This document shows, one piece after another, positions 27,939 through 44,333 of a stretch of 64,000 nt of DNA. A program made the position numbers and the translations under genes. Below the pieces are notes generated by a model, which had not been told where the DNA came from, ran no database searches, and saw only the letters and a program-made list of their open reading frames with translations. The stretch is from Komagataeibacter sp. FNDCR2 (GTDB lineage Bacteria > Pseudomonadota > Alphaproteobacteria > Acetobacterales > Acetobacteraceae): NCBI RefSeq assembly GCF_021295395.1, contig NZ_JAIWOU010000001.1, forward strand, positions 2,927,001-2,991,000. The letters are read 5' to 3'. The number at the start of each line of letters is the position of its first letter. Position 1 is the stretch's first letter.

Positions 27939-27970
27939 GCCAGAGCGGCAAGCTGAAAGAATGCAGAGAA

Positions 27971-29338
27971 ATGGCGCATGACAGGCAGACGGCTTCGGGT
28001 TCCGGCATTGTAAACCTGATCGCGGCGGTCGCCGCGACGGGCGGCCTGCTGTTCGGGTATGATACCGGGATCATATCCGCCGCCCTGTTGCAGATCACGC
28101 GCGATTTCGCACTGGAGACGCTGGGCCAGCAGATCGTGACATCGGCCATCGTGGCCGGTGCGCTGGGGGGCTGTCTTGTGGCGGCCCCCCTGTCGGACAG
28201 GCTGGGGCGGCGGTACATGATCATGTTCGCGGCCCTGGTCTTCATTATCGGCACGCTGGTCGCCTCCCTTTCCCCATCGGTGGAGCTGCTGGTCTTCGCG
28301 CGGTTCATCCTTGGGCTGGCTGTGGGGATGTGTTCACAGATCGTGCCTGTCTATATCGCGGAAATCGCCCCGCGTGAGACACGCGGGCAGATGGTCGTGC
28401 TGTTCCAGCTTGCGGTGGTGTTTGGCATTCTGGTCTCCTTCATTGCGGGGTACCTGTGCCGCAACCAGACCTGGCGGCTCATGTTCGGCCTGGGGGTGGT
28501 GCCGGCGGTCATCCTGTTCGTCGGCATGTCGCTGCTGCCACGCAGCCCGCGCTGGCTGGCCATGAAGGGCAATCTGGAAGGGGCGTTTGAAGTGCTGCGT
28601 CGCCTGCGGCGCGACCCGGCGGCGGCGCGCACGGAACTCGACACCATCATCGCCATGCATGATGAGCAGGCCCCATGGTCCGCGCTGTTGCAGCCATGGG
28701 TGCGCCCGGCTGTCGTGGCGTCGGTGGGGGTGGCGCTGTTCTGCCAGATTACCGGCATCAACGCCGTACTGTATTATGCGCCAACCATTTTCGCCGGGGT
28801 GGGATTTGGCCAGAACTCGGCATTGCTGACATCCATCGCCATTGGTGTGGCGATGGTCCTGTCCACCGCGTTCGGGAGCTGGGCGGTGGATGCATGGGGG
28901 CGGCGCAGTCTGCTGCTGCGGCTGATCCCCGGAGCCGTCATCTCGCTTATGGTGCTGGGCCTGATGTTCGCCATCGGCTCGACCAGCGGGCTCGATACAT
29001 GGATCACGGCGATAGCGGTCGTGTGCTACGCGGTCTTTAACGTGGGGAGCCTGTCGGTGGCGGTCTGGCTGGTGGGGGCCGAGGTTTATCCGCTGTCGTG
29101 CCGTAGCAAGGGCATGAGCCTTGTGGCCGCGACGCACTGGTCGGCGGACCTGCTGATTTCACTTACGACCCTGTCTCTGGTGCAGGCGCTGGGGGCGGCG
29201 GGAACGTTCTGGATGTACGCCGCCATCAATCTTGTCGCTCTGGTGTTTGTATGGCGATACGTGCCCGAAACGCGCGGTCACTCGCTGGAGAAAATCGAGG
29301 CGAGCCTGAAGGCCGGTACATTCTATGAAATGACCTGA
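27971..29338 (+). CDS. Sugar:H+ symporter of the MFS sugar-porter family
   Basis: 455 residues with 12 predicted helices. Family signatures are present: G-G-L-L-F-G-Y-D-T-G-I-I-S-A in helix 1, D-R-L-G-R-R between helices 2 and 3, P-V-Y-I-A-E-I-A-P after helix 4 and Q-I-T-G-I-N-A-V-L-Y-Y in helix 7, ending with P-E-T-R-G. This is the XylE/GalP/AraE type. Substrate is likely a pentose or hexose; D-xylose is attractive because of the neighbouring xylulokinase. ATG 27971 was chosen to give the usual short cytoplasmic start. Confidence 0.9.
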   Translation: MAHDRQTASGSGIVNLIAAVAATGGLLFGYDTGIISAALLQITRDFALETLGQQIVTSAIVAGALGGCLVAAPLSDRLGRRYMIMFAALVFIIGTLVASLSPSVELLVFARFILGLAVGMCSQIVPVYIAEIAPRETRGQMVVLFQLAVVFGILVSFIAGYLCRNQTWRLMFGLGVVPAVILFVGMSLLPRSPRWLAMKGNLEGAFEVLRRLRRDPAAARTELDTIIAMHDEQAPWSALLQPWVRPAVVASVGVALFCQITGINAVLYYAPTIFAGVGFGQNSALLTSIAIGVAMVLSTAFGSWAVDAWGRRSLLLRLIPGAVISLMVLGLMFAIGSTSGLDTWITAIAVVCYAVFNVGSLSVAVWLVGAEVYPLSCRSKGMSLVAATHWSADLLISLTTLSLVQALGAAGTFWMYAAINLVALVFVWRYVPETRGHSLEKIEASLKAGTFYEMT

Positions 29339-29923: not shown

Positions 29924-31219
29924 ATGGAACTGTCCGCGTTAATCTATTTCGTCTCGCTGGTTGACCATAAATCAACCCATGATGCCGCATCCGTCCTGAA
30001 TGTCAGCCAGTCCACCATCAGCCACGCCGTGTCCGCGCTGGAACACGCCATGGCGGCCCCGCTTATTACGCGCGGCGTGCGCCGCCGGAACCATACCGGC
30101 ATTACCACCGCCTATGGGCAGAACCTCTATCGGTCTTCCGTCATGCTGCTGCACTGGTGCGCCGATCTGCTTTCAGGCAAAACAGTGCGCACGCCCCGGC
30201 TGGCGCTGGATCTTTATTCCGGCCGGCGCGTCACGCTTCCCGGCCTGTCGGATGAGAGCCTGCAACGCATCATGCGCTCCAACCTGAGCCTGCGCATGAT
30301 CGGTCACTTCCTGACCGTGTGCGACGTGGGCAGCATTGCGGGGGCCGCGCGCAGGTTATTGCTGACCCAGCCCACGGTTACGCGGCAGCTTCATAAACTG
30401 GAAAGCATTGTCGGGTCATCCTTGCTGGTCCGCTCCACCTGCGGGGTGCAGCCCACCGCGTCCGCGCGGCTGCTCATTCAGGGGTGCCAGTCCATAGACA
30501 GGATGTACCGCCGGATCATGAAGGATGAAAACATCAGCTATTTCCTTCAGACCCGGGCGCTGCACCTGGCGGCGATGATGCCATCGAGCCCGGACAGTTC
30601 GCTGACCATCCTTCTGGCCACGCTGGTGCGTTACTGGCGCGAAAAGCGCTTTACGCCCCCCCTGTCCATTTCCACCACCGCGGCCCCCACCATCATCGCC
30701 GGTCTGGTCAATGCGGATTATGATGTGGGACTGTGCGACCTGGTTGACCTGCCATCGCATTTCCAGTCCGTCGATGTCGAAACGCAGAACCTGTTTCTCG
30801 TGCTGCCCATGAACAGTACGGAATCAGCCGCCATGTCGCTGCCCACCATCATGGGTGGCCATGTCCTCGCCGTGCCGGGGTTCGGCACCGGCCTGCGCCG
30901 CCTGACCGATATGTTTCTTGAAAACGAGGGGATCACACCGGCAGGCATCGTTGAAACGCAGTCCCTGTCGCTTCTGCTGCGGCTTGTCATCGATGGTACC
31001 TGCTGCGCGCTGCTTCCGGCGGGATCGTTCCATGCGGCCAATGTGCGCGCCATTCCCCTGCCACGGCGCTACCGCATGACAACCCGGCTGGTCTGGAAAG
31101 CCAGCCATGCCGATATGGCGAGCATCGACCGGCTCAGGCGCAGCATCATGGAAATACAGTCGCAGCGCCCCCGCGCGGTCACCACCCGGTCGCGCCCGGC
31201 GCACGCGAATGCGGCATGA
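29924..31219 (+). CDS. LysR-type regulator with two HTH domains
   Basis: 431 residues, about 120 more than a normal LysR protein. The first HTH spans residues 2-60 (A-A-S-V-L-N-V-S-Q-S-T-I-S-H-A-V-S-A-L-E). A second LysR-type HTH spans about 121-181 (A-A-R-R-L-L-L-T-Q-P-T-V-T-R-Q-L-H-K-L-E). The effector domain follows at about 210-410. The gene is first in the ergothioneine-type locus and its stop overlaps the MFS start (ATGA at 31216-31219). It is therefore both the likely regulator and a member of the operon. Unlike most LysR regulators it is not divergent from its targets. Confidence 0.85.
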   Translation: MELSALIYFVSLVDHKSTHDAASVLNVSQSTISHAVSALEHAMAAPLITRGVRRRNHTGITTAYGQNLYRSSVMLLHWCADLLSGKTVRTPRLALDLYSGRRVTLPGLSDESLQRIMRSNLSLRMIGHFLTVCDVGSIAGAARRLLLTQPTVTRQLHKLESIVGSSLLVRSTCGVQPTASARLLIQGCQSIDRMYRRIMKDENISYFLQTRALHLAAMMPSSPDSSLTILLATLVRYWREKRFTPPLSISTTAAPTIIAGLVNADYDVGLCDLVDLPSHFQSVDVETQNLFLVLPMNSTESAAMSLPTIMGGHVLAVPGFGTGLRRLTDMFLENEGITPAGIVETQSLSLLLRLVIDGTCCALLPAGSFHAANVRAIPLPRRYRMTTRLVWKASHADMASIDRLRRSIMEIQSQRPRAVTTRSRPAHANAA

Positions 31220-32442
31220 ACAGCCTGACCTCCATCTACCGCGTCACCAGTCCGTGGCGGCGTCGCGGGGTTGTGGCGCTGCTGGTCCTGGCGGGCGGCA
31301 TAAGCTATATCGACCGCTCCGCGCTATCGGTCGGCAACATGGCGATTGTGGCCGACATGCACTTTTCCGATACGCAGATGGGGTGGATGCTTTCGGCGTT
31401 CGCATGGTCCTATCTGGTGTTCCAGGTTCCGGCGGGTCTCCTGTCCGACCGCTGGGGCGGGCGCGTCGTGCTGGGGGTCAGCCTGGTCATCTGGTCGCTG
31501 GCCCAGATCGCTTTTGGCCTGGTTTCGGGCGTGTGGGCTTTCTTTGCATGCCGCGCGCTGCTGGGCGCGGGGGAAGCGCCGCTTTTCCTTGCCGGGACAG
31601 GGGTGATCACGCGCTGGTTCCGGCCGGAGGAACGCGGCGGCCCCATCGGGCTGTTCAATGCGTCCTCCACCCTGGGGCCTGCCATTGCCCCGCCGCTGCT
31701 GCTGGCCATCATGAGTGTGTGGGGCTGGCGGGACATGTTCATCACCGTGGGCTGCGCCAGCCTGCTGCTGGCATTCGTCTGGCTGGCGGTGTATCGCGAT
31801 CCGGAGCAGGTGGTGGTGCGCGCCACGCGGCGGCCCCCTACGCGCACCCATCTGGCCTACCTGCTGAAACAGCGTTCGACATGGGTGCTGGCCACGGGTT
31901 TCGTCGGGGTCATCTATATTACCTGGCTATATGGCGCGTGGCTGCCGGCATACCTGCAGAAGGTCCATCATCTGACGTTGCGGCAGGCGGCGCTGTTATC
32001 CGCGTTGCCGCAACTGTTCGGTTTCCTTGGCAGCGTGCTGGGTGGTTTCCTGACCGACTGGCTGGGCCGCCGGGGTGCATCACCCGTCATCGCCTGCCGC
32101 ACGCCCCTTGTCTGGGGGCTGGTCTGCGCTTCCGTCGCGACCGTAATGGCCGCGGTCATCCCATCCCTGGGCCTGTCCGTCGCCCTGATCTGCGTAGCGC
32201 TGTTTTCCGGCGGGATCGCCATGACCAGCGGCTGGGCGCTCGGGGCGGTCATCGTGACTGAAGACCGCGTGGCGACCATGGAATCAATTCAGAATACAGG
32301 GGGCTCCCTTGGGGGCGCGCTTGCGCCCGCCCTGACCGGGATGATCGCCGATCACTTCGGCTCGTTTGTCCCGTCCCTTCTTGTTGCTGGCGCCATCGGC
32401 TTTCTGTGCGCCGGAATTTATCGGTACGGCCTGAACGAATAG
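31216..32442 (+). CDS. MFS transporter, anion:cation symporter (ACS) type
   Basis: 408 residues with 12 helices. Y-I-D-R-S-A-L-S-V in helix 1, A-F-A-W-S-Y-L-V-F-Q-V-P-A-G-L-L-S-D-R-W-G-G-R and R-A-L-L-G-A-G-E-A-P are typical of the ACS family, which carries organic anions such as hexuronates, tartrate or allantoate. Here it is co-translated with the regulator by a 4-bp overlap. It may take up ergothioneine or an intermediate such as thiourocanate, or export a product. Substrate is inferred from context only. Confidence 0.85.
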   Translation: MNSLTSIYRVTSPWRRRGVVALLVLAGGISYIDRSALSVGNMAIVADMHFSDTQMGWMLSAFAWSYLVFQVPAGLLSDRWGGRVVLGVSLVIWSLAQIAFGLVSGVWAFFACRALLGAGEAPLFLAGTGVITRWFRPEERGGPIGLFNASSTLGPAIAPPLLLAIMSVWGWRDMFITVGCASLLLAFVWLAVYRDPEQVVVRATRRPPTRTHLAYLLKQRSTWVLATGFVGVIYITWLYGAWLPAYLQKVHHLTLRQAALLSALPQLFGFLGSVLGGFLTDWLGRRGASPVIACRTPLVWGLVCASVATVMAAVIPSLGLSVALICVALFSGGIAMTSGWALGAVIVTEDRVATMESIQNTGGSLGGALAPALTGMIADHFGSFVPSLLVAGAIGFLCAGIYRYGLNE

Positions 32443-32511: not shown

Positions 32512-34857
32512 ATGGACTTCCGGAAAAATCTGGCACGTTCGACACTTATGGCCACCGTAGCAGCATTCGCACCCTATCACGCATGGGCGGCCGATGCATC
32601 GCCACCAGAACATGCCACCCATTCCCCTGACACAACAAAGACGCATGCCACCCGGGCGCAGCGTGTTCTCAGGCATCAGGCAAGCGAGACCATTTCGGTT
32701 TTCGGCCATGGGTCAACCCGGCAGATGACAAGCGTGACCCGGACCATGATGGAACAGAGCGTGCCCGGCACCTCCCCCATGAAGGTGCTGAACCAGTTGC
32801 CGGGCATTGTGTACCAGTCGGCCGACCCGTTCGGGGCGTATGAGTATTCAAGCTCGCTGTACATGCGTGGCTTTTCACAGAACCAGATCGGTTTCACGCT
32901 CGATGATATTCCGTTGGGCGACCAGCAGTTCAACAACTATAACGGCCTGAGCATCACGCGCGCGATTACGACCGACAACGTGGGGGGCGCCGATGTGTCG
33001 CAGGGCGCGGGCGCGGTGGATGTGGCGTCCAACAGTAATCTTGGCGGCGCCATCCAGTTCCATTCCCTCGATCCCTCCCATACCCGTGGCGGCACGGTGG
33101 AGCAGACATTCGGCAGCAACCAGACATTCCGCACCTTCGCCCGTATCAACAGCGGCGATCTGAACAGCAGCGGCACGCGCTTTTACGCATCCTATGCCCG
33201 CACGGACATGAACCTGTGGAAGGGTGGGGGCTATGACTATTCCGATCAGGTCAATGCCAAGATTGTGCAGCCGCTGGCCAATGACTCATCCATCAAGGCG
33301 TTTTTTGACTGGAGTTCGACCCAGCAGTTCGATTACCAGGACATGACCCAGAACTACCTGAGCACGATCGGCCCCAAGCTCGCCAACTATTACCCGAACT
33401 ATACCGCGGCCTATCAGGCGGCGCAGGGGATCTATCCCGCGCAGTACCAGAAATCCAACGACCCGTATGACGCCGCCTATTACGCAGGCACCGCCAACCG
33501 CGTGGATTACTTTGGCGGTATCACGCTTGATGAAAACCTGTCATCGCACCTGAACTGGAAAACGACGGTTTATGGCCATGGGGACAGTGGCTACAGCACA
33601 TGGACCACGCCCTATATGCCTTCGCCCAACGGCGCGCCCCTGTCGCAGCGCGTGCAGGATCCGGGCATCCAGCGTGGTGGTTTCCTTTCCGCCGTGACCT
33701 ATGGCATCGCCCGGCACAAGATCAATGCCGGCGTCTGGTATGAATATGGCCGGTTTACCGAGGGGCGCTCCTTTGCCGAAGCGCCGCTTCTGGGGCAGGG
33801 AACGCTGGGCAACCCGACGGATGGGTACCCCTCCAACGTATTCGCCACGCCATGGCAGGAAATCTTCCATAGCAATACCTTTACATTCCACCTGCAGGAC
33901 ACGTTTCAGGTCATGAAAAACCTGAAGATCAACGCGGGTTTCAAATCCATGATCGTCTCGGCGGGCAATACCGTGCCGACCCAGAATGTCGCGGCGAACG
34001 GGGGGCTGATCGCGCAGGGCAACCTGACGGCGGCGGACGCCTTCCTGCCGCAGGTCTCCGCCGCATGGCGCTTCCTGCCGCATCATGAACTGTTCTTCGA
34101 TGTGTCGAAGAACATGCGCACCTACCCCGAAGATGGCTTCACCACCAACGTCTCCGCCACCCCATGGACGGAAACCCAGAGCGCGTTCCAGTCCACCAAG
34201 AACCAGCTACGCCCGGAAAAGGACTGGGTTTACGAACTGGGTTACCGCTACACCACACCCATGCTCAGCGGGCTGGTCTCGCTCTATCGCGTCAACTTCT
34301 CCAACCGCCTGCAGCTCATCACCTCCAATCACGGGATCAACCCGCAGACCGCGATCAGCAATGTCGGCGGTGTGACCACCAATGGCGCGGAAGCCAGCTT
34401 TACCGTGCGCCCGACAGATGGCCTGTCGATCTATAACTCCTTTTCCTACGCCCATTCCACCTATGACCAGAATGTCGTGACCACGAATGGTATCGAGCCC
34501 ACACGCGGCAAGCTCATACCGAACTATCCCACGTTCATGTACAAGGGCAGCATTTCCTATTCCTGGCATCACTTCAAGGCGAACCTGGATGGTAACTACA
34601 TATCCAGCCGCCAGTTGACCTATACGAACGATGCCCATGTGCCTGGCTACTTCCTGGCCAATTTCGGCATGCATTACAACTTCGGGGACTACAAGTTCCT
34701 CAAGGGCATCAACGCCAGCTTCAATGTCTATAACCTGTTCAACAAGACATATGTCGCAACGACCAATGAACTGGGGAATACATTCACGGCGGGCTACAAT
34801 TACTTCCTGATGGGCGCGCCACGGCAGTTCTTTGGTACGATCAGCACCAATTTCTGA
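32512..34857 (+). CDS. TonB-dependent outer-membrane receptor
   Basis: 781 residues. A signal peptide is cleaved after Y-H-A-W-A (about residue 26). A TonB-box-like E-T-I-S-V-F-G (about 59-65) leads into a plug domain with L-N-Q-L-P-G-I, R-G-F-S-Q-N-Q-I and G-A-V-D-V-A-S-N-S-N-L-G-G-A-I. The beta-barrel ends with a terminal Phe (T-I-S-T-N-F), as required for outer-membrane insertion. Position inside the ergothioneine-type locus suggests active uptake of that compound or a complex of it. A ferric-siderophore role is the general alternative for this family. Confidence 0.88.
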   Translation: MDFRKNLARSTLMATVAAFAPYHAWAADASPPEHATHSPDTTKTHATRAQRVLRHQASETISVFGHGSTRQMTSVTRTMMEQSVPGTSPMKVLNQLPGIVYQSADPFGAYEYSSSLYMRGFSQNQIGFTLDDIPLGDQQFNNYNGLSITRAITTDNVGGADVSQGAGAVDVASNSNLGGAIQFHSLDPSHTRGGTVEQTFGSNQTFRTFARINSGDLNSSGTRFYASYARTDMNLWKGGGYDYSDQVNAKIVQPLANDSSIKAFFDWSSTQQFDYQDMTQNYLSTIGPKLANYYPNYTAAYQAAQGIYPAQYQKSNDPYDAAYYAGTANRVDYFGGITLDENLSSHLNWKTTVYGHGDSGYSTWTTPYMPSPNGAPLSQRVQDPGIQRGGFLSAVTYGIARHKINAGVWYEYGRFTEGRSFAEAPLLGQGTLGNPTDGYPSNVFATPWQEIFHSNTFTFHLQDTFQVMKNLKINAGFKSMIVSAGNTVPTQNVAANGGLIAQGNLTAADAFLPQVSAAWRFLPHHELFFDVSKNMRTYPEDGFTTNVSATPWTETQSAFQSTKNQLRPEKDWVYELGYRYTTPMLSGLVSLYRVNFSNRLQLITSNHGINPQTAISNVGGVTTNGAEASFTVRPTDGLSIYNSFSYAHSTYDQNVVTTNGIEPTRGKLIPNYPTFMYKGSISYSWHHFKANLDGNYISSRQLTYTNDAHVPGYFLANFGMHYNFGDYKFLKGINASFNVYNLFNKTYVATTNELGNTFTAGYNYFLMGAPRQFFGTISTNF

Positions 34858-34931: not shown

Positions 34932-36212
34932 GTGCAGACGCCCCCCATGCGACATCGTAACCTGATTATGGCGGCCTCCATCGGCAACCTTCTGGAATGG
35001 TACGATTTTACGGTTTACGCCCTGTTCGCCCGCTATATCGGGGAAGCGGTTTTCCGCTCCGCCGATGGTTTTTCCCAACTGGCGCAAAGCCTGCTGGTTT
35101 TTGGCCTGGGCACGGTGGCCCGCCCCATGGGCGCATTCATGCTGGGGCTGTATGCGGACCGGCACGGACGCAGGAAGGCCCTGTCGCTTACATGCGTTCT
35201 CATGGGGGTGGGGGCTGCCCTGATCCTTCTCGACCCGCCCTATGCCCGCATCGGTCGGCTGTCCATCGTGGTGCTGTGCTGCGCGCGGCTGTTGCAGGGG
35301 ATCTGCGCGGGGGGCGAAATCGGCAGCGCCACGGCCTTTCTCAATGAACAGGCGCCGCGTCACCGGCGCGGGCTGGCGGGGTCGTTCCTGCAGGCCACGA
35401 TGGGGCTTTCCAATATCCTTGGCGCGGGGGTCGCGGCCGTGCTGACCGCCGTGCTGACACAGGCGCAACTGGGGGCGTGGGGCTGGCGCGTGCCGTTCGC
35501 GATCGGGCTGGCCATCATCCCCGTCGGGCTCTATTTGCGCGGGGCGATGCCCGCCGATATGCCAGCGGCCCGCAACACGCCCGATACCGCCATTTTGCGC
35601 GAACTGTTCACCACGTACCGGAAAAACGTTTTCCTCGCCTTGTGCATGTCCATCCTGTGGGCGACGGCGCCGTACAGCCTGATCATCTATTTCCCGCTTT
35701 ACATGCAGGGTTCTTTCGGTGTTTCGGCCCATGCCAGTTACGTCGCCTTCATGACCGGGAACGTCGCCCTTGTCGGTGGGTCGCTGCTGGCAGGCCTGCT
35801 GGCGGACCGGGTCGGGGCATGGCGCATGCTGTCCGGTAGCGCGCTGGCGCTGGCGGTCGTGCCCGTGCTGCTGACCTCCGCGCTGCCCGCCCATCCGGGC
35901 CTGCTGGCGATGGTGGGGGTCGAGACCGGGTTATGCGCGCTGGTCGCCCTTTATGTAGGTGTGGCGCCGCTGGGTATCGCAAGCCTTTTTCCGCGCCCTG
36001 TCCGCGCCAGTGGCATCGCGATCGGGTACAACGCCGCGATGGTGGTTTTTGGCGGTTTTGCCCCTGCATTCCTGAGCATGCTCGGGGCGCGGCAGCACAT
36101 GCTTCTGGCCCCTGCTTTCTATGTCACGTTCACGGCGCTCCCGGCACTGGCGGCGCTTGCCGTAAGTGCAGGATATTTTGGCCCGGCGCGTACAGTGCAG
36201 CCGAAGGCATAG
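34932..36212 (+). CDS. MFS transporter, metabolite:H+ symporter (MHS) type
   Basis: 426 residues. The helix-1 motif A-A-S-I-G-N-L-L-E-W-Y-D-F is diagnostic of the MHS family (ProP, KgtP, ShiA). F-G-L-G-T-V-A-R-P-M-G-A and D-R-H-G-R-R-K-A-L follow. ProP-type members carry zwitterionic betaines, and ergothioneine is a trimethylated betaine, so this is the best candidate for its inner-membrane uptake. GTG 34932 is preceded by GAAGGA; an in-frame ATG is at 34947. It sits 19 bp before the ergothionase-like gene. Confidence 0.88.
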   Translation: MQTPPMRHRNLIMAASIGNLLEWYDFTVYALFARYIGEAVFRSADGFSQLAQSLLVFGLGTVARPMGAFMLGLYADRHGRRKALSLTCVLMGVGAALILLDPPYARIGRLSIVVLCCARLLQGICAGGEIGSATAFLNEQAPRHRRGLAGSFLQATMGLSNILGAGVAAVLTAVLTQAQLGAWGWRVPFAIGLAIIPVGLYLRGAMPADMPAARNTPDTAILRELFTTYRKNVFLALCMSILWATAPYSLIIYFPLYMQGSFGVSAHASYVAFMTGNVALVGGSLLAGLLADRVGAWRMLSGSALALAVVPVLLTSALPAHPGLLAMVGVETGLCALVALYVGVAPLGIASLFPRPVRASGIAIGYNAAMVVFGGFAPAFLSMLGARQHMLLAPAFYVTFTALPALAALAVSAGYFGPARTVQPKA

Positions 36213-36231: not shown

Positions 36232-37830
36232 ATGACCGGCGACACTATAAATGCGACACTATCCGCACGGGGAGACGGCATGATGAAGCACACCACGGAT
36301 GTTGTTCTGACGGGACATGACCTGTGCCTGACACAGATCGCCAGAATAGCCGATGGTGCCTGTGTAACCCTTTCGGCCGAAGGGATGAAGCGCATGGCGG
36401 CCAGCCATGCCACCCTGCTGTCGCTGCTGGCGGAAGGAAGCGAGGTCTATGGCACCACCAGCATGGTCGGGGCCTTTAAGGACTGCGACATCCCTACGGA
36501 CGACCCGACGGCCTATGCCCGGCGGCTGCTGCGTTCGCATGCGCTGGGGTCCGGTCCGGCATTTGACGTGCGTGAGGTCAGGGCGGCCATGGCCATCCGG
36601 CTCAATGGGCTGTTAAGCGGCCAGACGGGCGCGTCCCCCGCGCTGGCGCGTGCCCTGCGGGATCTGCTCAATGCCCGGATTACGCCGGTCGTGCGCATTT
36701 ATGGTTCGATCGGGTGCGCCGATGTCGGGCTGATGTCGCATATAGGCAAGGCCCTGCTGGGTGATGGGGATGTCATGGTACCGGGGCATGATGCGCCGCA
36801 GCCCGCCATGGCCATGCTGCGTCGCCACGGGCTGTCCCCGCTTGTTCCGGGGCCGAAGGACATCATGACCGTCCTGTCCAGCAATGCGCTGTCGGTCGCC
36901 ACGGTCGCCCTTTCGGTGACTGAACTGCGGCGTACATTGCCGGTCAGCCTGGGGGTGTATGGTCTGTCCTGCGCGGGATTTGGCGCGTTCCGCGCGCCCT
37001 GGCAGGCAGCACTTGGCAACGGCACGATGGCTGAAAGGCGCGTGGCCGCGTTCGTTGCGCAGGCGATGCGGGGTGATGCCTGGGTTTCGCGTGGGCATAT
37101 CCACGACCCGTTATGCTTCCGTTGCCTGCCACAGACCGGGGGGGCGCTTCTCGCAGCCCTGCTGCGGGTGGAGACGGCGTTGCACCATGCCTTCAACCAC
37201 TGTGATGACAATCCGCTTCTGGTCGGGGGCGAGATCCTGACATCCGGTGGGTCGCTGCTGCTGGAACTGACGCTGGATGTGCAGATGCTGCTGCAGGCGG
37301 TCGCGCATTACGCGCGCGGTTCCATGGGGCGCATCCTGACCCTGTGCCGCGACGACCTGTCCGGCCTGCCGCGCAACCTTACCCTGCATGTGGGATATGA
37401 CATCGCATTCGGCGCGGCGACGAAGCTGGCGGTTGATCTGGGCACCCGCATCCTGCGGGAAGCCGCACCGGCTTCACTGTACCAGGTGCCCGTCGCCAAC
37501 GGGGTGGAGGATGAAGCCTCCTACCTTCCCATGGCGGGGCGCGCGCTTGAGCTGCAGGTCAACCTGCTGCACCGGCTGGTTGCGCAGGAAGCCGTCACCG
37601 CCTTTCAGGCGGTGCACCTGTCGGGCAATGAAAGCGTGCTGCACGGTATGGCGGGGCATCTGTACGCCCGGCTGGCCACGTGCATCGAACCGGTCAACGA
37701 TCACATCCCGCTCTGCACTGTTTTTGACGCCGCGCGTGATGTCCTGTTCACCGGCGAAACCGCAATATCCGGCCCGTCCAGCCTCCTGTTCGGGTCTGAC
37801 AGCATCTTACGGGAGCATGAAAATGCATGA
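36232..37830 (+). CDS. HAL-family lyase without MIO triad, probable ergothionase
   Basis: 532 residues, HutH size and fold. V-Y-G-T-T-S at 72-77 keeps the family Tyr (Tyr73). The region that normally reads G-S-V-G-A-S-G-D-L reads G-S-I-G-C-A-D-V at 158-165, so the Ala-Ser-Gly that forms the MIO cofactor is gone. Other HutH active-site segments also differ: H-D-P-L-C-F-R-C replaces Q-D-x-Y-S-L-R, and S-G-G-S-L-L replaces the N-F-H-G region. Lys398 replaces a small residue. Ergothionase is a known MIO-free member that expels trimethylamine from ergothioneine to give thiourocanate. Neighbouring genes encode the next four steps. AGGGA is 8 bp before ATG 36232. Confidence 0.8.
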   Translation: MTGDTINATLSARGDGMMKHTTDVVLTGHDLCLTQIARIADGACVTLSAEGMKRMAASHATLLSLLAEGSEVYGTTSMVGAFKDCDIPTDDPTAYARRLLRSHALGSGPAFDVREVRAAMAIRLNGLLSGQTGASPALARALRDLLNARITPVVRIYGSIGCADVGLMSHIGKALLGDGDVMVPGHDAPQPAMAMLRRHGLSPLVPGPKDIMTVLSSNALSVATVALSVTELRRTLPVSLGVYGLSCAGFGAFRAPWQAALGNGTMAERRVAAFVAQAMRGDAWVSRGHIHDPLCFRCLPQTGGALLAALLRVETALHHAFNHCDDNPLLVGGEILTSGGSLLLELTLDVQMLLQAVAHYARGSMGRILTLCRDDLSGLPRNLTLHVGYDIAFGAATKLAVDLGTRILREAAPASLYQVPVANGVEDEASYLPMAGRALELQVNLLHRLVAQEAVTAFQAVHLSGNESVLHGMAGHLYARLATCIEPVNDHIPLCTVFDAARDVLFTGETAISGPSSLLFGSDSILREHENA

Positions 37831-39181
37831 ACTTGTCCTGACCGGGGCGGTCGTGACCTGCGCGGGAATACTGCGCGATGGCTGGATCGCGGTCGATCAC
37901 GGGCGCATTTCCCGCTTTGGGCAGGGGACGCCCCCACAGGCCACGAAAACGGAAAACCATGGCGAGGCCCTGCTTCTTCCCGGCGGGATTGACGCGCAGG
38001 TCCATTCCCGCTCCCAGAAGGGGCAGGAAGATTTCATCTGGACCACCCGATCCGCCGCGGCGGGGGGCGTCACCACCATTGCCGACATGCCTTATGACGA
38101 TGGCTTTCTGGTCTGTACCGCCGAGCGCCTGCGGCTGAAGGCGCGGGAGGCCGCCGAGCAGGCGCGCGTGGATTTTGCCCTGTGGGGCACCATCGCGCCC
38201 GCCGATGGGCCGGTCCATATTGCCGATATGGCGGCGGCGGGGGCATGCGCCTTCAAATTTTCCACTTTCGGCACCGATCCCGAGCGTTTCCCACGCATTC
38301 CGGCCGATCTTCTGGCCGAATGTTTCAGCGCCGTCGCCCGCTGCGGCCTGGTCGCGGGCGTGCATAACGAACATGACGCGATGGTGCGCGCCCATATCCG
38401 CCGCGTGGCGGAATCCGGCGTGACCGACTGGCGCGCCCATGGCCTGTCCCGTCCCCCGTTGTCCGAGGCGCTGGCCACGGCTGAAATTTACGAAATCGCG
38501 GCGGCGACCGGCTGCTCGGCCCATGTGGTGCATGCGTCCATCATTCGGGGCTACGAACTCTGTGCCGCATACCGCCGCCAGGGCTTCGACACCACCATCG
38601 AGGCCTGCATCCACTACCTGACGCTGGATGAGGAACACGACGTCGCGCGCCTGGGTGGCAAGGCCAAGATCAACCCGCCCATCCGCCCCCGGCGGGAGGT
38701 CGAGGGCATATGGGCGCATCTGGTGGCCGGGAACGTGAGCGTGGTTTCAACGGACCATGTCTCTTGGAGCGAGGGACGCAAGACCAGCCCGAACATGCTG
38801 GAAAATGCATCCGGCGCGCCGTCGCTTGAAATCCTTTACCCGCTTTTCCTGACCGAACTGTCACGCCGGGGGCTTTCGGCCAGCCTCGCGGCACGGCTGC
38901 TGGCGGAAAACCCGGCGCGCCTGTTCCGCCTGTCCTGCCGCAAGGGGGGCATCGCCATCGGGCGTGATGCGGACATCACGGTCGCCCGGGCGGAAAGCTG
39001 GACCTACGACCCACGGGCCAGCGGCAACGCCTTCGCCACCTGGAGCCCCTATGAGGGCCGGACGCTGGACTGGCGCATCGCGGCCACCTACCTGCGTGGC
39101 CAGCGCATATTCGATGGCGCGCAGGTTCTGGCCCCGCCGGGCACGGGGCGGTTCGTAACCCCCGAAGGGTGCGGCGCATGA
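37823..39181 (+). CDS. Hydantoinase-like amidohydrolase, probable hydantoin-5-propionate hydrolase
   Basis: 452 residues of the dihydropyrimidinase/allantoinase superfamily. P-G-G-I-D-A-Q-V-H-S-R-S (52-63) has Gln59-Val-His61 where most members have His-x-His. Lys145 (F-K-F-S) is the likely carbamylated lysine; His181, His234/237 and Asp311 (S-T-D-H) complete a binuclear metal site. In the ergothioneine route this enzyme opens hydantoin-5-propionate to N-carbamoyl-glutamate. ATG 37823 overlaps the lyase stop by 8 bp and has GGAG 7 bp upstream; an ATG at 37817 is too close to it. The altered first His may be a subfamily trait. Confidence 0.78.
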   Translation: MHELVLTGAVVTCAGILRDGWIAVDHGRISRFGQGTPPQATKTENHGEALLLPGGIDAQVHSRSQKGQEDFIWTTRSAAAGGVTTIADMPYDDGFLVCTAERLRLKAREAAEQARVDFALWGTIAPADGPVHIADMAAAGACAFKFSTFGTDPERFPRIPADLLAECFSAVARCGLVAGVHNEHDAMVRAHIRRVAESGVTDWRAHGLSRPPLSEALATAEIYEIAAATGCSAHVVHASIIRGYELCAAYRRQGFDTTIEACIHYLTLDEEHDVARLGGKAKINPPIRPRREVEGIWAHLVAGNVSVVSTDHVSWSEGRKTSPNMLENASGAPSLEILYPLFLTELSRRGLSASLAARLLAENPARLFRLSCRKGGIAIGRDADITVARAESWTYDPRASGNAFATWSPYEGRTLDWRIAATYLRGQRIFDGAQVLAPPGTGRFVTPEGCGA

Positions 39182-40440
39182 ACATGTCCACCCTTTCATC
39201 GCATATCCAGCCCGAGCGGCTATGGGCCGATCTCATGGAACTTGGGACGATGACCGATCCCGACCAGCCTTATACCCGCCGCTCCTTTTCCGCGCGTTTT
39301 CTGGATGGGCGCGGCTGGTTGCGGCACCGTTTCCAGCAGGCGGGCCTGTCATGCCGGATCGATGCGGCGGGCAACCTGATCGGACGCCGCAGCGCCGTAT
39401 CGCCCGACGCACGTACGATCATGACCGGCTCGCATTCCGATACCGTGCCCGGCGGCGGCAGGTTCGATGGCATACTGGGCGTGCTGGCAGGGCTGGAAAT
39501 CGCGCGCGCGATGCGTGATGGCGGCGTCACGCTGGCGCATCATTTCGAAGTAACCGATTTCCTGGCCGAAGAGCCGAGCGATTTCGGCCTGTCGTGCATT
39601 GGCAGTCGCGGCATGACGGACAGCCTGACACCCCGGCATCTCGCCCTGCGCGCGCCATGGGGCGAAACCCTGGCCGATGCCATAAACCGCATGGGCGGCG
39701 ATGCGTCCCGCCTGTCCCATGCGCAACGCCATGACATCGCGGCCTTCATGGAACTGCATATCGAGCAGGGCATCGTGCTGGAGCGTGAGGGCACGGAGGT
39801 CGGCATTGTCGAGGCCATTGTGGGCGTCACCCGCATCGAGGTCATTTTTTCGGGGCGCGCGGATCATGCCGGCACGACCCCCATGGACTGCCGACGTGAC
39901 GCCATGGTTGCGGCGGCGGGGCTGATTACCGCCGTCTCGCATCTGGGGCGTGATGCGGCGCGGGCGGGCAGGGGGCATGTCACGGCGACATGCGGCATTG
40001 TGGAGGTGCTGCCCAATGCGTCCAATGTCATCCCGCGTCAGGCCCGGCTGGTGATCGACATCCGCGTGAGTGAACGCGATGCCTGTGAACGCCTGCTGGC
40101 CCAGCTTCGCGCCGTCGCCGCCGCGCAGGCCGCGGCCTGTGACGTGACACTGGCGCGCTTTGAAATCCAGTCCGACTCCCCCCCCGTTGCCTGTAGCCCG
40201 CTCCTTGCCGACTTTCTGGAAACGGCGGCGGGCGCGCTGGGCCTGTCATCGCGCCGCATGGTTTCGGGGGCGGGGCATGATGCGGCGTTCCTTGCGCGCG
40301 TGGCGCCCAGCGCCATGGTTTTCATTCCCTGCCGCGATGGCCGCAGCCATGACCCGGATGAATGGATCACGGCGCACGACGCCGCCAACGGCACGCGCGT
40401 GCTGGCCGACGCGATCATGGCGGCGGACGCCGCGACCTGA
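39178..40440 (+). CDS. Zn-dependent N-carbamoyl-amino-acid hydrolase, probable carbamoyl-glutamate hydrolase
   Basis: 420 residues of the M20/AllC-HyuC family. Metal and catalytic positions are visible: G-S-H-S-D-T-V (His86), G-R-F-D-G (Asp97), A-E-E-P (Glu131/132), L-H-I-E-Q-G (His194), and a late I-T-A-H-D-A. Family members hydrolyse N-carbamoyl-L-amino acids or allantoate. Here the likely reaction is N-carbamoyl-glutamate to L-glutamate, ammonia and CO2, the last step of ergothioneine breakdown. Its ATG overlaps the hydantoinase stop (ATGA). Confidence 0.85.
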   Translation: MNMSTLSSHIQPERLWADLMELGTMTDPDQPYTRRSFSARFLDGRGWLRHRFQQAGLSCRIDAAGNLIGRRSAVSPDARTIMTGSHSDTVPGGGRFDGILGVLAGLEIARAMRDGGVTLAHHFEVTDFLAEEPSDFGLSCIGSRGMTDSLTPRHLALRAPWGETLADAINRMGGDASRLSHAQRHDIAAFMELHIEQGIVLEREGTEVGIVEAIVGVTRIEVIFSGRADHAGTTPMDCRRDAMVAAAGLITAVSHLGRDAARAGRGHVTATCGIVEVLPNASNVIPRQARLVIDIRVSERDACERLLAQLRAVAAAQAAACDVTLARFEIQSDSPPVACSPLLADFLETAAGALGLSSRRMVSGAGHDAAFLARVAPSAMVFIPCRDGRSHDPDEWITAHDAANGTRVLADAIMAADAAT

Positions 40441-40484: not shown

Positions 40485-41591
40485 GTGGGTAGAATACTTG
40501 TAGCCAGAGATGTCGAAGCCGCCATTCGCGGCGGTTCGATTTTTGCCTGTGGCGGGGGCGGATGGGTCGAACATGGCCGCATGCTGGGAACCGCCGCCGT
40601 CAATGCCGGCCAGCCCGAACTGGTCGGCATGGATGAAATCGCGGATGACGCCATCATCGCCACGGCGGCCGCCATCGGCGCGCCCGCCAGCACCACGCAG
40701 TGGGAAATGCTGGGCGTCGATTACGTCAATGCCGTGCGGCTGGTGCAAAAGGAACTGGGGGCGCCGATCTATGGTCTCATGATCGGGCAGAACGGCAAGT
40801 CCAGCACCCTCAACGCCTGGCTGCCGGGCGCCATTCTGGGCACCAAGGTAGTTGACGCCGTGGGCGACATGCGCGCCCACCCCACGGGCGACATGGGCTC
40901 GATCGGCATGGCCAATTCCCCCCTGCCCATGATCCAGGCGGTGGTGGGCGGCAACCGGGCGAACCACGCCTATATCGAGATGGTGGCGAAAGGGGCCACG
41001 GCCCGTATCTCGCCCATCTTGCGTACGGCGTCCGATATGTCGGGTGGTTTTATCGCCTCCTGCCGTAACCCCTTGCCAGCGTCCTATGTCCGCGCCCATG
41101 CCGCCGCCGGTGGCATTTCACGGGCACTGAAGCTGGGGGAAGTCGTGCTGGAGGCGGAAAGGAAAAACGGGCACGCCGTGATTGACGCCATCGTGCGCGA
41201 ACTCGACGGCTGTATCATGGCGCAGGGGCGTGTCAGCGCGAAGAATGTGCGTTATACCGATGAAGCCTTTGATATCGGGACCATAACGGTCGGGTCCGGT
41301 TCGTCCGCCGTGGTGCTGCATGTCATGAACGAATACATGGCCGTGGAGACACCGGACGGGCAGCGCCTTGCATCCTTTCCCGATGTCATCACCACCCTTG
41401 CCCCCAGCGGCTACCCGCTGAGTGTGGGTGAAGTGGAAGAGGGCATGGACATTCTTGTGCTCCATGTCGAGAAAACGAAGTTTCCCCTTTCTTCCAGTGT
41501 CGTTGACCCGGCGGTCTATCCGCCGGTTGAACGCGCGCTGGGTATCGAACTTGCATCCTACGCCATAGCCGGAAGGAAACAGGACTCATGA
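40485..41591 (+). CDS. DUF917-family protein, probable thiohydantoin desulfurase
   Basis: 368 residues. The early C-G-G-G-G-W-V motif and the order of Gly-rich segments (I-G-M-A-N-S-P-L-P, D-I-G-T-I-T-V-G-S-G-S) match DUF917, now called the S-methyl-thiohydantoin desulfurase domain. In ergothioneine catabolism a DUF917 enzyme removes sulfur from 2-thiohydantoin-5-propionate to give hydantoin-5-propionate and sulfide. GTG 40485 is preceded by GAGG 8 bp upstream. It is linked to the next gene by a 4-bp overlap. DUF917 also occurs as hydantoinase partners, so function rests on the full set of neighbours. Confidence 0.78.
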   Translation: MGRILVARDVEAAIRGGSIFACGGGGWVEHGRMLGTAAVNAGQPELVGMDEIADDAIIATAAAIGAPASTTQWEMLGVDYVNAVRLVQKELGAPIYGLMIGQNGKSSTLNAWLPGAILGTKVVDAVGDMRAHPTGDMGSIGMANSPLPMIQAVVGGNRANHAYIEMVAKGATARISPILRTASDMSGGFIASCRNPLPASYVRAHAAAGGISRALKLGEVVLEAERKNGHAVIDAIVRELDGCIMAQGRVSAKNVRYTDEAFDIGTITVGSGSSAVVLHVMNEYMAVETPDGQRLASFPDVITTLAPSGYPLSVGEVEEGMDILVLHVEKTKFPLSSSVVDPAVYPPVERALGIELASYAIAGRKQDS

Positions 41592-43234
41592 TGCCGCGAC
41601 GTTTTGAAGTCACATCGGGCAACACGCTGCGCTGTCGTGGCTGGCGACAGGAAGGGCTGCTGCGCCTGCTGGAAAACGTGCTGAGCGTGGGCGAGGACCC
41701 GGACAATCTGGTCGTTTACGCGGCATTGGGGCGCGCCGCGCGCAACTGGCCCGCGCATGACGCCATCGTCTCGACACTGAAGACCATGGCGGATGATGAA
41801 ACGCTGATCGTGCAGTCCGGCAAGCCGATCGGGGTGGTCAGGACGCATGCGGGCGCGCCCATCATCATCATGGCGAACTGCAACATGATCGGCCAGTGGG
41901 CGAAGGCGGAGGAATTCTACCGGCTGGAAAAGATGGGCCTGATCTGCTGGGGCGGCCTTACGGCGGGGGACTGGCAGTATATCGGCTCACAGGGTGTCAT
42001 TCAGGGCACCTATGAAATTTTCCGCCGCATTGCCGAACAGCATTTTGACAGCAGCCTTGCCGGCCGCCTGATCCTGACATCGGGGCTGGGGGGCATGGGG
42101 GGGGCGCAGCCGCTGGCCGGAAGGCTGGCCGGAGCCGTGATCCTGTGTGTCGAGATCAATCCCGAACGGATCGAAAAACGCATCCAGTCCGGCTATCTCC
42201 AGCACCGGGCCGATACGCTGGATGAGGCGCTGGCCATGGTCGGGGCCGCGCAGGCCCGGGGGGAGGCCTGTTCTATCGGGCTTACGGGAAACGCTGCCGA
42301 AATCTTCCCCCAAATTCTGGCGCGCGGTATCGCGCCCGACATCGTGACGGACCAGACTTCGGCCCATGACCTGGTGTACGGCTATATTCCCGCCGGGATC
42401 AGCCTTGATGAGGTGGAACAGCTTCGCCGTGACGATCCGCAACGCCTGATGGCGCTGTCATCGCAGTCCATTGTCCACCATGTGCGCGCCATGCTGGACT
42501 TCCGCAGGAACGGATCGGTCGTTTTCGATAATGGCAATCTCATCCGCACGCAGGCGCATAAAGCCGGGGTCAGCGACGCGTTCGACATTCCCATCTTCAC
42601 CGAAGCCTATCTGCGCCCGCTTTTTGCCCGCGCCATTGGCCCGTTCCGCTGGATCGCCCTTTCCAACGATCCGGAAGACATCCGCAAGATAGATGATTAC
42701 CTGCTCGAAACATTCGCGCGGGATGCCTCCGTCGTCAACTGGATCACCCTGGCGCGCCAGTACATTCCCTTTGAAGGACTGCCCGCGCGCATTGCATGGA
42801 TCGGTCATGAATCCCGCACCATGGTCGGGCTTGCCGTGAACCGGATGGTGCGTGACGGTGTTCTGTCCGGCCCCGTGGCCTTTACGCGCGACCATCTGGA
42901 TGCTGGCGCCATGGCGCATCCCAATATCATGACCGAGAACATGAAGGATGGCTCGGACGCCATTGCCGACTGGCCTTTGCTCAACGCCATGCTGGCCTGC
43001 TCATCGCAGGCCGATCTTGTCGCGATCCATTCCGGCGGCGGTGGATATGCCGGTTATATGACCAGTTCCGGCATAACCGTAATCGCGGATGGTTCGGCGC
43101 AGGCGGACGAACGGCTGCAAAAAACCCTGACCAATGATACCAGCCTTGGCGTCATGCGCTATGCCGATGCGGGATATGAGGAAGCGTATGACGAAGCGGA
43201 CAAGCGCGGTATTCGCTATCTTTCGGTTAAATAG
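41588..43234 (+). CDS. Urocanase-family protein, probable thiourocanate hydratase
   Basis: 548 residues, urocanase size. G-R-A-A-R-N-W, Q-S-G-K-P-I-G-V, T-A-G-D-W-Q-Y-I-G-S-Q-G-V-I-Q-G-T-Y and the NAD+ site G-L-G-G-M-G-G-A-Q-P-L-A are clear. Differences from HutU lie around the active site: G-L-P-A-R-I-A-W replaces the usual R-I-C-W, so the urocanase Cys is Ala, and H-S-G-G-G-G-Y-A-G-Y replaces H-H-G-G-G-V-G-M-G-Y. These fit a change of substrate from urocanate to thiourocanate. It is the last gene of the operon, followed by a hairpin. Confidence 0.8.
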   Translation: MMPRRFEVTSGNTLRCRGWRQEGLLRLLENVLSVGEDPDNLVVYAALGRAARNWPAHDAIVSTLKTMADDETLIVQSGKPIGVVRTHAGAPIIIMANCNMIGQWAKAEEFYRLEKMGLICWGGLTAGDWQYIGSQGVIQGTYEIFRRIAEQHFDSSLAGRLILTSGLGGMGGAQPLAGRLAGAVILCVEINPERIEKRIQSGYLQHRADTLDEALAMVGAAQARGEACSIGLTGNAAEIFPQILARGIAPDIVTDQTSAHDLVYGYIPAGISLDEVEQLRRDDPQRLMALSSQSIVHHVRAMLDFRRNGSVVFDNGNLIRTQAHKAGVSDAFDIPIFTEAYLRPLFARAIGPFRWIALSNDPEDIRKIDDYLLETFARDASVVNWITLARQYIPFEGLPARIAWIGHESRTMVGLAVNRMVRDGVLSGPVAFTRDHLDAGAMAHPNIMTENMKDGSDAIADWPLLNAMLACSSQADLVAIHSGGGGYAGYMTSSGITVIADGSAQADERLQKTLTNDTSLGVMRYADAGYEEAYDEADKRGIRYLSVK

Positions 43235-43267: not shown

Positions 43268-43283
43268 GGGCTTGAGTTCCGGC

Positions 43284-44333
43284 ATGCCGCCTGCCATCGT
43301 GGTGTCCATGTCTTCCGATCCGCCTCCTCCCTTGCCCCGGCTGACCGGGGGTGCGGGCATTCCGCCTGTGGGGGGAGAAGTGCGCGGGCCGCTAACCCCG
43401 GCCGGGGTTGCGGCACTGGAGGCCGCGACCGATTTCGCCCAGCGCGCCACAGCCCCCGCGACCCTGCGCGCCTATCGCGCCGACTGGGCGCATTTCCAGA
43501 ACTGGTGCGACAGAACCGGGTTCTGCCCCCTGCCGGCGGAACCCCGGGTGGTGGGGGCCTATCTTGCCAGTCTGGCCGAAGATTTCGCGCCTGCCACCAT
43601 CCGCCGCAGGCTGGCGGCCATAGGCAAGGCCCATCGCTTTGGGGACCTGCCATGGAATCCGGGGCATCGGGATATTCAGGGGCCATTACAGGGCGTATTG
43701 CGTACGCAACGCCGTCCGGTCAGCAAGCCGGTGGCGGTGCGCCGGAACCTGCTTGGGCAGTTGCTGGCGACCTGCGACCTGACGCCCCGTGGCCGCCGTG
43801 ACCGGGCGCTGCTGCTGGTCGGTTTTGCCGCCGCCCTGCGCCGCTCCGAACTGGTGGGCCTGCATGTGGAGGATATTACGCCCACTGAAACGGGCGTAAG
43901 GCTGCACATCCGCGCAAGCAAGACCGACCAGACCGGGGAGGGGGCGATGATCGGCCTTGCCCATGGACAGCAGGCGCAGACCTGCCCGGTCCGGGCGCTG
44001 GCGGCCTGGCAGGCGGTGGCCCGGCGTGGCGCGGGGCCGCTGTTTCGCAAGGTGGATGCGAATGGCCGGATCCGCGAAAAGGCGCTTCATCCCGATGCCG
44101 TGCGCCAGATCCTGCATCGCCGGGGTGTCATGGCCGGCCTGCCTGCCGATGTCCTGACGCGCCTTACCCCGCATGGGCTGCGTTCGGGCTTCATTACCGA
44201 AGCGTATCTGGCCGATGTGCGGGAGGAGGAAATCCGCCGCCATGTCCGCCATCGCGACCCGCGCAGTACGCGGGGCTATATCGAACTGCTTGACCTTGTT
44301 ATCGACACGCCCGCGGGAAAAATCGGCCTGTAA
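43284..44333 (+). CDS. Tyrosine-type site-specific recombinase
   Basis: 349 residues. An N-terminal SAM-like DNA-binding domain (A-P-A-T-L-R-A-Y-R-A-D-W-A-H-F-Q-N-W-C) is followed by the catalytic domain. It has the first Arg in A-A-L-R-R-S-E-L-V-G-L, the box H-G-L-R-S-G-F-I, H-V-R-H-R-D and the nucleophile Tyr in S-T-R-G-Y-I-E. All catalytic positions appear intact. Start codons at 43272 (TTG), 43284 and 43308 are all possible. No excisionase or phage genes accompany it, so it may be a remnant marking an integrated island or a plasmid-type resolvase. Confidence 0.82.
   Translation: MPPAIVVSMSSDPPPPLPRLTGGAGIPPVGGEVRGPLTPAGVAALEAATDFAQRATAPATLRAYRADWAHFQNWCDRTGFCPLPAEPRVVGAYLASLAEDFAPATIRRRLAAIGKAHRFGDLPWNPGHRDIQGPLQGVLRTQRRPVSKPVAVRRNLLGQLLATCDLTPRGRRDRALLLVGFAAALRRSELVGLHVEDITPTETGVRLHIRASKTDQTGEGAMIGLAHGQQAQTCPVRALAAWQAVARRGAGPLFRKVDANGRIREKALHPDAVRQILHRRGVMAGLPADVLTRLTPHGLRSGFITEAYLADVREEEIRRHVRHRDPRSTRGYIELLDLVIDTPAGKIGL

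Follow-up and report, generated by a model that had tools for sequence, protein, structure and literature searches.

A predicted ergothionase lacking the MIO tripeptide in an ergothioneine catabolic operon of Komagataeibacter

The window analyzed here, a 64,000-nucleotide stretch of the Komagataeibacter sp. FNDCR2 genome, contains a gene for a HAL-fold lyase from which the MIO-forming Ala-Ser-Gly has disappeared, and this raises the question of what such an enzyme could eliminate. A quaternary ammonium group is its own leaving group, and an earlier note made from the sequence alone had argued for the loss of trimethylamine rather than ammonia, in the manner of ergothionase. Comparison of the gene, its neighbors, and its relatives makes it very likely that the product is an ergothionase (ergothioneine trimethylamine-lyase, ErtA), predicted to catalyze the opening step of an operon for breakdown of the antioxidant ergothioneine. 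Judged by its sequence, the lyase would be a divergent ergothionase of an already known enzyme type, novel in the group of bacteria that carries it and familiar in its chemistry. Table 1 lists the features discussed below.

Table 1. Coordinates of the operon genes and of selected lyase residues in the window
Feature	Coordinates	Strand	Basis or remark
LysR-type regulator, 431 aa, candidate operon regulator	29924..31219	+	Two HTH_1 matches; in 14/14 loci
Other MFS transporter	31216..32442	+	MFS_1; in 14/14 loci
TonB-dependent receptor, candidate outer-membrane ergothioneine uptake	32512..34857	+	Pfam Plug and barrel; in 14/14 loci
MFS transporter, candidate inner-membrane ergothioneine importer	34932..36212	+	Pfam MFS_1 and Sugar_tr; ends 19 bases before lyase gene
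Predicted ergothionase (ErtA), MIO-less HAL-fold trimethylamine lyase	36232..37830	+	PF00221, best PDB match, alignment, tree
Alternative lyase starts	36280 or 36283	+	ATGATG at residues 17-18
Tyr73, candidate catalytic base	36448..36450	+	Tyr in 25/25 ert-linked lyases, T. denticola ergothionase, HutH
Codons 158-165, GSIGCADV, former MIO loop	36703..36726	+	Alignment; one residue shorter than HutH, Cys162 at HutH Ala position
Arg297, candidate carboxylate-binding residue	37120..37122	+	In 25/25 ert-linked lyases, also T. denticola ergothionase, HutH
Lys398	37423..37425	+	Lys in T. denticola ergothionase and 24/25 ert-linked lyases, Arg in Deinococcus; Val in the two HutH compared
Glu426	37507..37509	+	Glu in 24/25 ert-linked lyases, T. 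denticola ergothionase, HutH; Asp in Deinococcus
ErtD, hydantoin-5-propionate amidohydrolase	37820..39181	+	NF058538, 741.7 bits, cut-off 600; 11-base overlap with lyase gene
ErtE, N-carbamyl-L-glutamate amidohydrolase	39169..40440	+	NF058540, 560.1 bits, cut-off 520
Thiohydantoin desulfurase (S-Me-THD/DUF917 family)	40485..41591	+	NF058529, 596.1 bits, cut-off 440; S-methyl model 274.8, below cut-off 450
Thiourocanate hydratase (urocanase homolog)	41588..43234	+	NF058530, 1005.2 bits, cut-off 930; S-methyl model 750.8, below cut-off 880

The lyase gene and its former MIO loop

The lyase reading frame is uninterrupted from an ATG to the stop codon and encodes 532 residues. The protein belongs to the HAL family (PF00221, Lyase_aromatic; 280.6 bits against a Pfam cut-off of 27.3), and the names of its Pfam and NCBIfam matches are those of ammonia-lyases and aminomutases, the NCBIfam ones scoring below their cut-offs; general family models would name the gene an ammonia-lyase. 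The HutH equivalog of NCBIfam, TIGR01225, gives 192.2 bits, far under its cut-off of 539. No ergothionase-named NCBIfam model matched the window lyase or any of 10 further lyases; as these include the Burkholderia and Paracoccus proteins, the absence of a match is uninformative, and NCBIfam was dropped as a judge of lyase identity. The true start codon may be one of the two alternatives in Table 1 instead of 36232, since an in-frame GTG aligns with window residue 21 in 13 of 14 relatives, the window itself has the two adjacent ATG codons, and residues 1 through 20 are modeled by AlphaFold2 with very low confidence (pLDDT <50).

Alignment with HutH from P. putida and with the HutH of the host bears out how the earlier note had described the loop: GSIGCADV stands at residues 158 through 165 opposite GSVGASGDL, one residue is deleted, and Ala-Ser-Gly is gone from the MIO site. 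An intact Ala-Ser-Gly elsewhere at the active site would have spoken against the note; it was looked for throughout the protein and none was found, the look-alikes being GSG at 106 and TSG at 337 through 339, which aligns with an S-G-G run of HutH. The QDxYSLR and NFHG regions are rewritten as had been claimed, reading HDPLCFR (291 through 297) and TSGGSLLLEL (337 through 346), respectively. Lys398, also called new in the note, is indeed present where both HutH have Val, and the deletion is real relative to HutH; neither is a novelty, since Treponema denticola ergothionase has both.

All 15 aligned Acetobacteraceae lyases (52 to 89% identity to the window lyase) have an identical loop from Y157 through V165, which is thus not a sequencing slip; Tyr73, Arg297, Lys398, and Glu426 are likewise invariant in all 15. 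A wider set of 25 ert-linked lyases comprises these 15, seven of rhizobial type, and those of Burkholderia arboris, Paracoccus denitrificans, and a Deinococcus. None has Ala-Ser-Gly at the MIO site, and eight have the tripeptide elsewhere in the chain. Position 162 is Cys in 22 of the 25 (all 22 Acetobacteraceae and rhizobial-type sequences) and Glu in B. arboris, P. denitrificans, and the Deinococcus, as in T. denticola. Some columns do not vary over 25 sequences (the 15 Acetobacteraceae, the seven of rhizobial type, and the three Glu-type lyases of B. arboris, P. denitrificans, and T. denticola) and read otherwise in the two HutH, among them those of Lys83, Asp84, Asn218, Asp325, and Lys398; these five residues, together with Tyr73, Arg297, and Glu426, all match T. 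denticola ergothionase in the alignment. The loop that follows Tyr73 is G-T-T-S-M in the 15 Acetobacteraceae lyases (YGTTSM as opposed to a YGxN loop). The Deinococcus lyase (L058:10048-11583, on a plasmid of Deinococcus sp. KNUC1210) lies beside ertB-E homologs, has Arg for Lys398 and Asp for Glu426, and perhaps represents a different solution for the same step; the ertD homolog at this locus is annotated as two pieces.

Composition, conservation, and distribution of the operon

The hydratase, desulfurase, ErtD, and ErtE encoded beside the lyase all score over curated cut-offs, and the block thereby has the content of an ergothioneine catabolic operon. It agrees with the gene set that carries the Ert names in NCBIfam 20.0 in its four later enzymes and in the adjoining lyase; what the acetic acid bacterial loci add to that set is a TonB receptor, two MFS genes, and a LysR regulator. 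With the general hutU (urocanase) model, too, the hydratase scores over the cut-off (709.9 bits against 375), and the best NCBIfam match of the MFS protein encoded at 34932..36212 is a metabolite/H+ symporter (280 bits, below the cut-off of 443). From this MFS gene through the hydratase gene, neighbors either overlap by 4 to 13 bases (lyase/ertD, 11; ertD/ertE, 13; desulfurase/hydratase, 4) or lie 19 to 44 bases apart. No operon gene besides the lyase was seen in the Pfam and NCBIfam matches to be able to make thiourocanate. Because the downstream enzymes need thiourocanate and the lyase is the sole gene of the block apparently able to make it, the lyase is the probable source.

Searching with the lyase as query gathered 14 loci (L003 through L016), all from Acetobacteraceae (Komagataeibacter, Gluconobacter, Acetobacter, and Gluconacetobacter), and the nine-gene order is kept in every one. 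Identities to 13 of these relatives (K. melaceti excluded) are 52 to 59% for the lyase, 61 to 64% for ErtE, 73 to 76% for ErtD, 78 to 82% for the hydratase, and 82 to 85% for the desulfurase, which makes the lyase the least conserved of the five operon enzymes; the TonB receptor is 70 to 76% identical, and the regulator and MFS genes (50 to 61%) are as variable as the lyase. On a plasmid of Rhizobium sp. SL42, genes of these four later enzymes come after a lyase gene, their order unchanged.

Beyond the 14 loci, 17 further ert loci were compared, among them four that had originally been located through the lyase (L040 through L043); L044, which has no ert genes, and L050 and L051, with weak or no desulfurase homology, were excluded. 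The lyase lies within the stretch read in 10 of the 17 and is absent from it in seven (L048, L052 through L056, and L059), and strict co-occurrence of lyase and ert genes was rejected for that reason. These clusters may use outside thiourocanate or keep a lyase elsewhere. When counting started from the desulfurase, a lyase was present in 9 of 15 cases, made up of four of five genomes of the phylum with a desulfurase over the cut-off (host excluded) and 5 of 10 plasmid records (60 to 80% identity). In one of the loci, L054, the desulfurase match is in three pieces.

A desulfurase over the cut-off was found in 6 of 299 sampled Acetobacteraceae genomes. The operon, lyase included, is present in three of the six (the host, G566, and G669), and in the other three (G440, G459, and G517) the desulfurase is alone in the stretch read (L087 through L089, with L087 at a contig end); L085 and L086 probably belong to the same genomes as L016 and L013 and were not counted as new loci. 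One further locus, L090, where the desulfurase is under the cut-off, has only distant hydratase and desulfurase homologs. At the level of the genus, thiourocanate hydratase scores over the cut-off in 2 of 19 genomes, the host and G694, whose lyase is 88% identical and matches that of K. melaceti (L003). Six genus genomes were compared at the gene upstream of the operon (27908-29338): five have this gene with no operon after it, and G694 has the operon. The operon is thus a sporadic, accessory set. A tyrosine recombinase gene (43272-44333) lies 37 bases past the operon; it is present in K. melaceti and absent from the stretches of the other 13 relatives. Its position next to the operon, taken with the patchy distribution, hints at a mobile origin.

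Likeness to ergothionase and weighing of the readings

A 2026 paper describes ergothionase as an enzyme without MIO that yields trimethylamine and thiourocanic acid (PMC13405746). The top PDB sequence match of the window lyase is the T. denticola ergothionase (6s7j/6s7q; E = 9.1e-51), followed by a Thermoplasma lyase (1e-34) and P. putida HutH (3.2e-26); with a 15-sequence profile, ergothionase is again first (1.2e-70, next match 2e-54). Identity is 30.6% over 448 positions to T. denticola ergothionase and 26.6% to P. putida HutH. The lyase shares with the Treponema enzyme the HAL fold, the lack of the MIO tripeptide, the one-residue deletion, the Lys at position 398, and the conserved Tyr, Arg, and Glu; it differs in overall sequence, in the former MIO loop, where the Treponema enzyme has SSIGEGD with Glu in place of Cys162, and in the loop after Tyr73 (YGTTSMVG instead of YGLNRGVG). 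With HutH it shares family and fold, but not the Ala-Ser-Gly or the Val at position 398. Burkholderia sp. HME13 has an ergothionase according to two papers (PMC13405746 and PMC7653990). The lyase of B. arboris (L043) was assumed to stand in for this enzyme; its gene is accompanied by those for a desulfurase, a hydratase, ErtD, ErtE, and a related MFS protein, and the B. arboris lyase keeps the deletion and the Lys, but is 32.9% identical to the window lyase and has a Glu-type loop, GSIGEAD.

A maximum-likelihood tree of 29 rows places the window lyase in an acetic acid bacterial clade (99/99) that joins the rhizobial type (100/99), and these two together with T. denticola, Burkholderia, and Paracoccus (25 rows) are split from two HutH and two other lyases with 96/90 support; several branches are long, that of the acetic acid bacterial clade included, and the program warned of false joins. 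The top PDB match, the shared deletion and Lys, this split, and the four linked ert enzymes, whose operon the note had left unmentioned, support the proposal of a MIO-less lyase that would eliminate trimethylamine as ergothionase does. The structure prediction that the earlier note had suggested, run as an AlphaFold2 model from 15 close sequences (window and L003 through L016), has a mean pLDDT of 74.1 and a pTM of 0.80, with the former MIO loop (159 through 163) and other active-site loops below 50. Foldseek ranks 7tqr, a Thermoplasma histidine ammonia lyase entry, first and ergothionase second, and the fold scores are nearly tied (7tqr, Z = 36.2, rmsd 2.9, 469 aligned; 6s7j_A, Z = 36.0, rmsd 2.8, 479 aligned). 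The model therefore supports the HAL fold and does not separate ergothionase from the ammonia lyases; given this tie and the low-confidence active-site loops, it was dropped as an arbiter.

In the mechanism that we propose, a primary amine would not be activated for want of MIO, and ergothioneine would bring its own leaving group, trimethylammonium. Tyr73 would serve as the base, Lys398 and its neighbors would act on the 2-thioimidazole, and Arg297 would hold the carboxylate; with the beta proton removed, trimethylamine would leave and thiourocanate would result. Hydratase, desulfurase, hydantoinase, and carbamoylase would then convert thiourocanate to glutamate, setting free sulfide, CO2, and ammonia, and the TonB receptor and MFS proteins may bring the substrate in.

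Several observations weigh against an ergothionase: the low identity to the Treponema enzyme, the tie in fold scores, the long tree branches, the YGTTSM loop, and Cys for Glu in the former MIO loop, to which are added the 7 of 17 other ert loci with no such lyase and the three of six desulfurase genomes with no other ert gene in the stretch read, and the occurrence of lyases that lack both Ala-Ser-Gly and ert genes. An identity of only 30.6% and an altered active-site loop would also suit a trimethylamine lyase acting on a compound related to ergothioneine, such as hercynine (which has no sulfur), ergothioneine sulfonate, or S-methyl-ergothioneine, and differently composed clusters do exist, as at L059, where a molybdopterin S/N-oxide reductase is encoded beside urocanase and DUF917 genes. 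We consider such a substrate improbable, as the hydratase and the desulfurase score over the cut-offs of the plain thiourocanate and thiohydantoin models but under those of both S-methyl models (Table 1), which speaks against an S-methyl-ergothioneine degradation set, and with hercynine a desulfurase would presumably be needless.

A diverged histidine (or other aromatic) ammonia-lyase, MIO-independent or weakened, would agree with the names of the Pfam and NCBIfam matches, with the lyase being the least conserved of the five enzymes, and with a lyase devoid of Ala-Ser-Gly about 2 kb from urocanase in two genus genomes; we nonetheless give it practically no credence, because the HutH equivalog score is so far under its cut-off, a separate HutH with Ala-Ser-Gly is encoded elsewhere in the genome, the neighbors are thiourocanate enzymes, and Tyr73, Arg297, Lys398, and Glu426 do not vary among the Acetobacteraceae. 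Conservation below that of the other operon enzymes could equally point to a non-catalytic or regulatory HAL-fold protein retained in the operon, but this is scarcely credible when 24 or 25 of 25 ert-linked lyases retain Tyr, Arg, Lys, and Glu and no other operon gene is seen to make thiourocanate. Read as an ergothionase, the gene would place acetic acid bacteria among the likely ergothioneine consumers that release trimethylamine. From a BLAST search with the Burkholderia sequence, the 2026 paper concludes that only a limited number of genera have ergothionase, and it also warns of divergent homologs (PMC13405746); the acetic acid bacterial clade, at ~33% identity to the Burkholderia homolog, would be such a case.

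Candidate uptake genes and other MIO-less lyases

All 14 acetic acid bacterial loci contain the TonB receptor gene and the MFS gene that precedes the lyase, both being fixed parts of this operon, and in B. arboris and P. denitrificans an MFS protein 42 to 45% identical is encoded directly before the lyase. In G692, a genome of the same genus, a TonB receptor 46% identical to that of the window (L107:6776-9187) directly precedes a MIO-less lyase. Together, these arrangements suggest that receptor and MFS protein may import ergothioneine or similar betaines. A study on Corynebacterium suggests that its ProP does not carry ergothioneine (PMC12689799), which is mildly against a ProP-like MFS protein as the carrier. 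If ergothioneine proves to be what the transporters carry, an outer-membrane route for its uptake would be defined; among the titles listed in literature searches for ergothioneine with Acetobacter, Komagataeibacter, or TonB-dependent, none is about this operon or such a receptor. The joint proposal that the lyases of acetic acid bacteria and those of rhizobial type constitute a separate subclass of ergothionase, the Cys type, with its own thione handling and that the acetic acid bacterial operon encodes dedicated ergothioneine uptake, by a TonB-dependent receptor and an MFS symporter, is tentative and, taken as a whole, rather doubtful. The EgtD model for ergothioneine synthesis found no match in the host.

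The second PF00221 gene of the host, directly after urocanase, encodes the HutH with intact Ala-Ser-Gly, and among the 19 genus genomes the tripeptide is present in eight of eight lyases encoded directly beside urocanase, the host included. In G693 and G694, no directly adjoining HutH was matched; both have a lyase of about 500 residues (L102:1411-2910 and L105:1411-2913) that lies about 2 kb from urocanase on the opposite strand and has GSVGYLTHM replacing GSVGASGDLAPLAH, with no Ala-Ser-Gly. By its sequence this appears to be a further kind of MIO-less lyase, and the tripeptide has thus been lost outside ert operons as well. Its loss was accordingly rejected as proof of an ergothionase, given also the lyase of L044 and two lyases of L107, which have neither the tripeptide nor ert genes. 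Two of these, L107:12070-13557 and L044:8944-10524, have GSIGAAD for GSxGASGD, and the stretches read around them contain no ert genes; near the former is an ORF that we take to be UbiD-like. The other L107 lyase (9187-10929), which follows the TonB receptor in G692, is a PF00221 protein of 580 residues with GSLGEGDL, no Ala-Ser-Gly, and apparently no Lys opposite Lys398; its hydrophobic N terminus looks like a signal peptide, and it is possibly a periplasmic MIO-less lyase.
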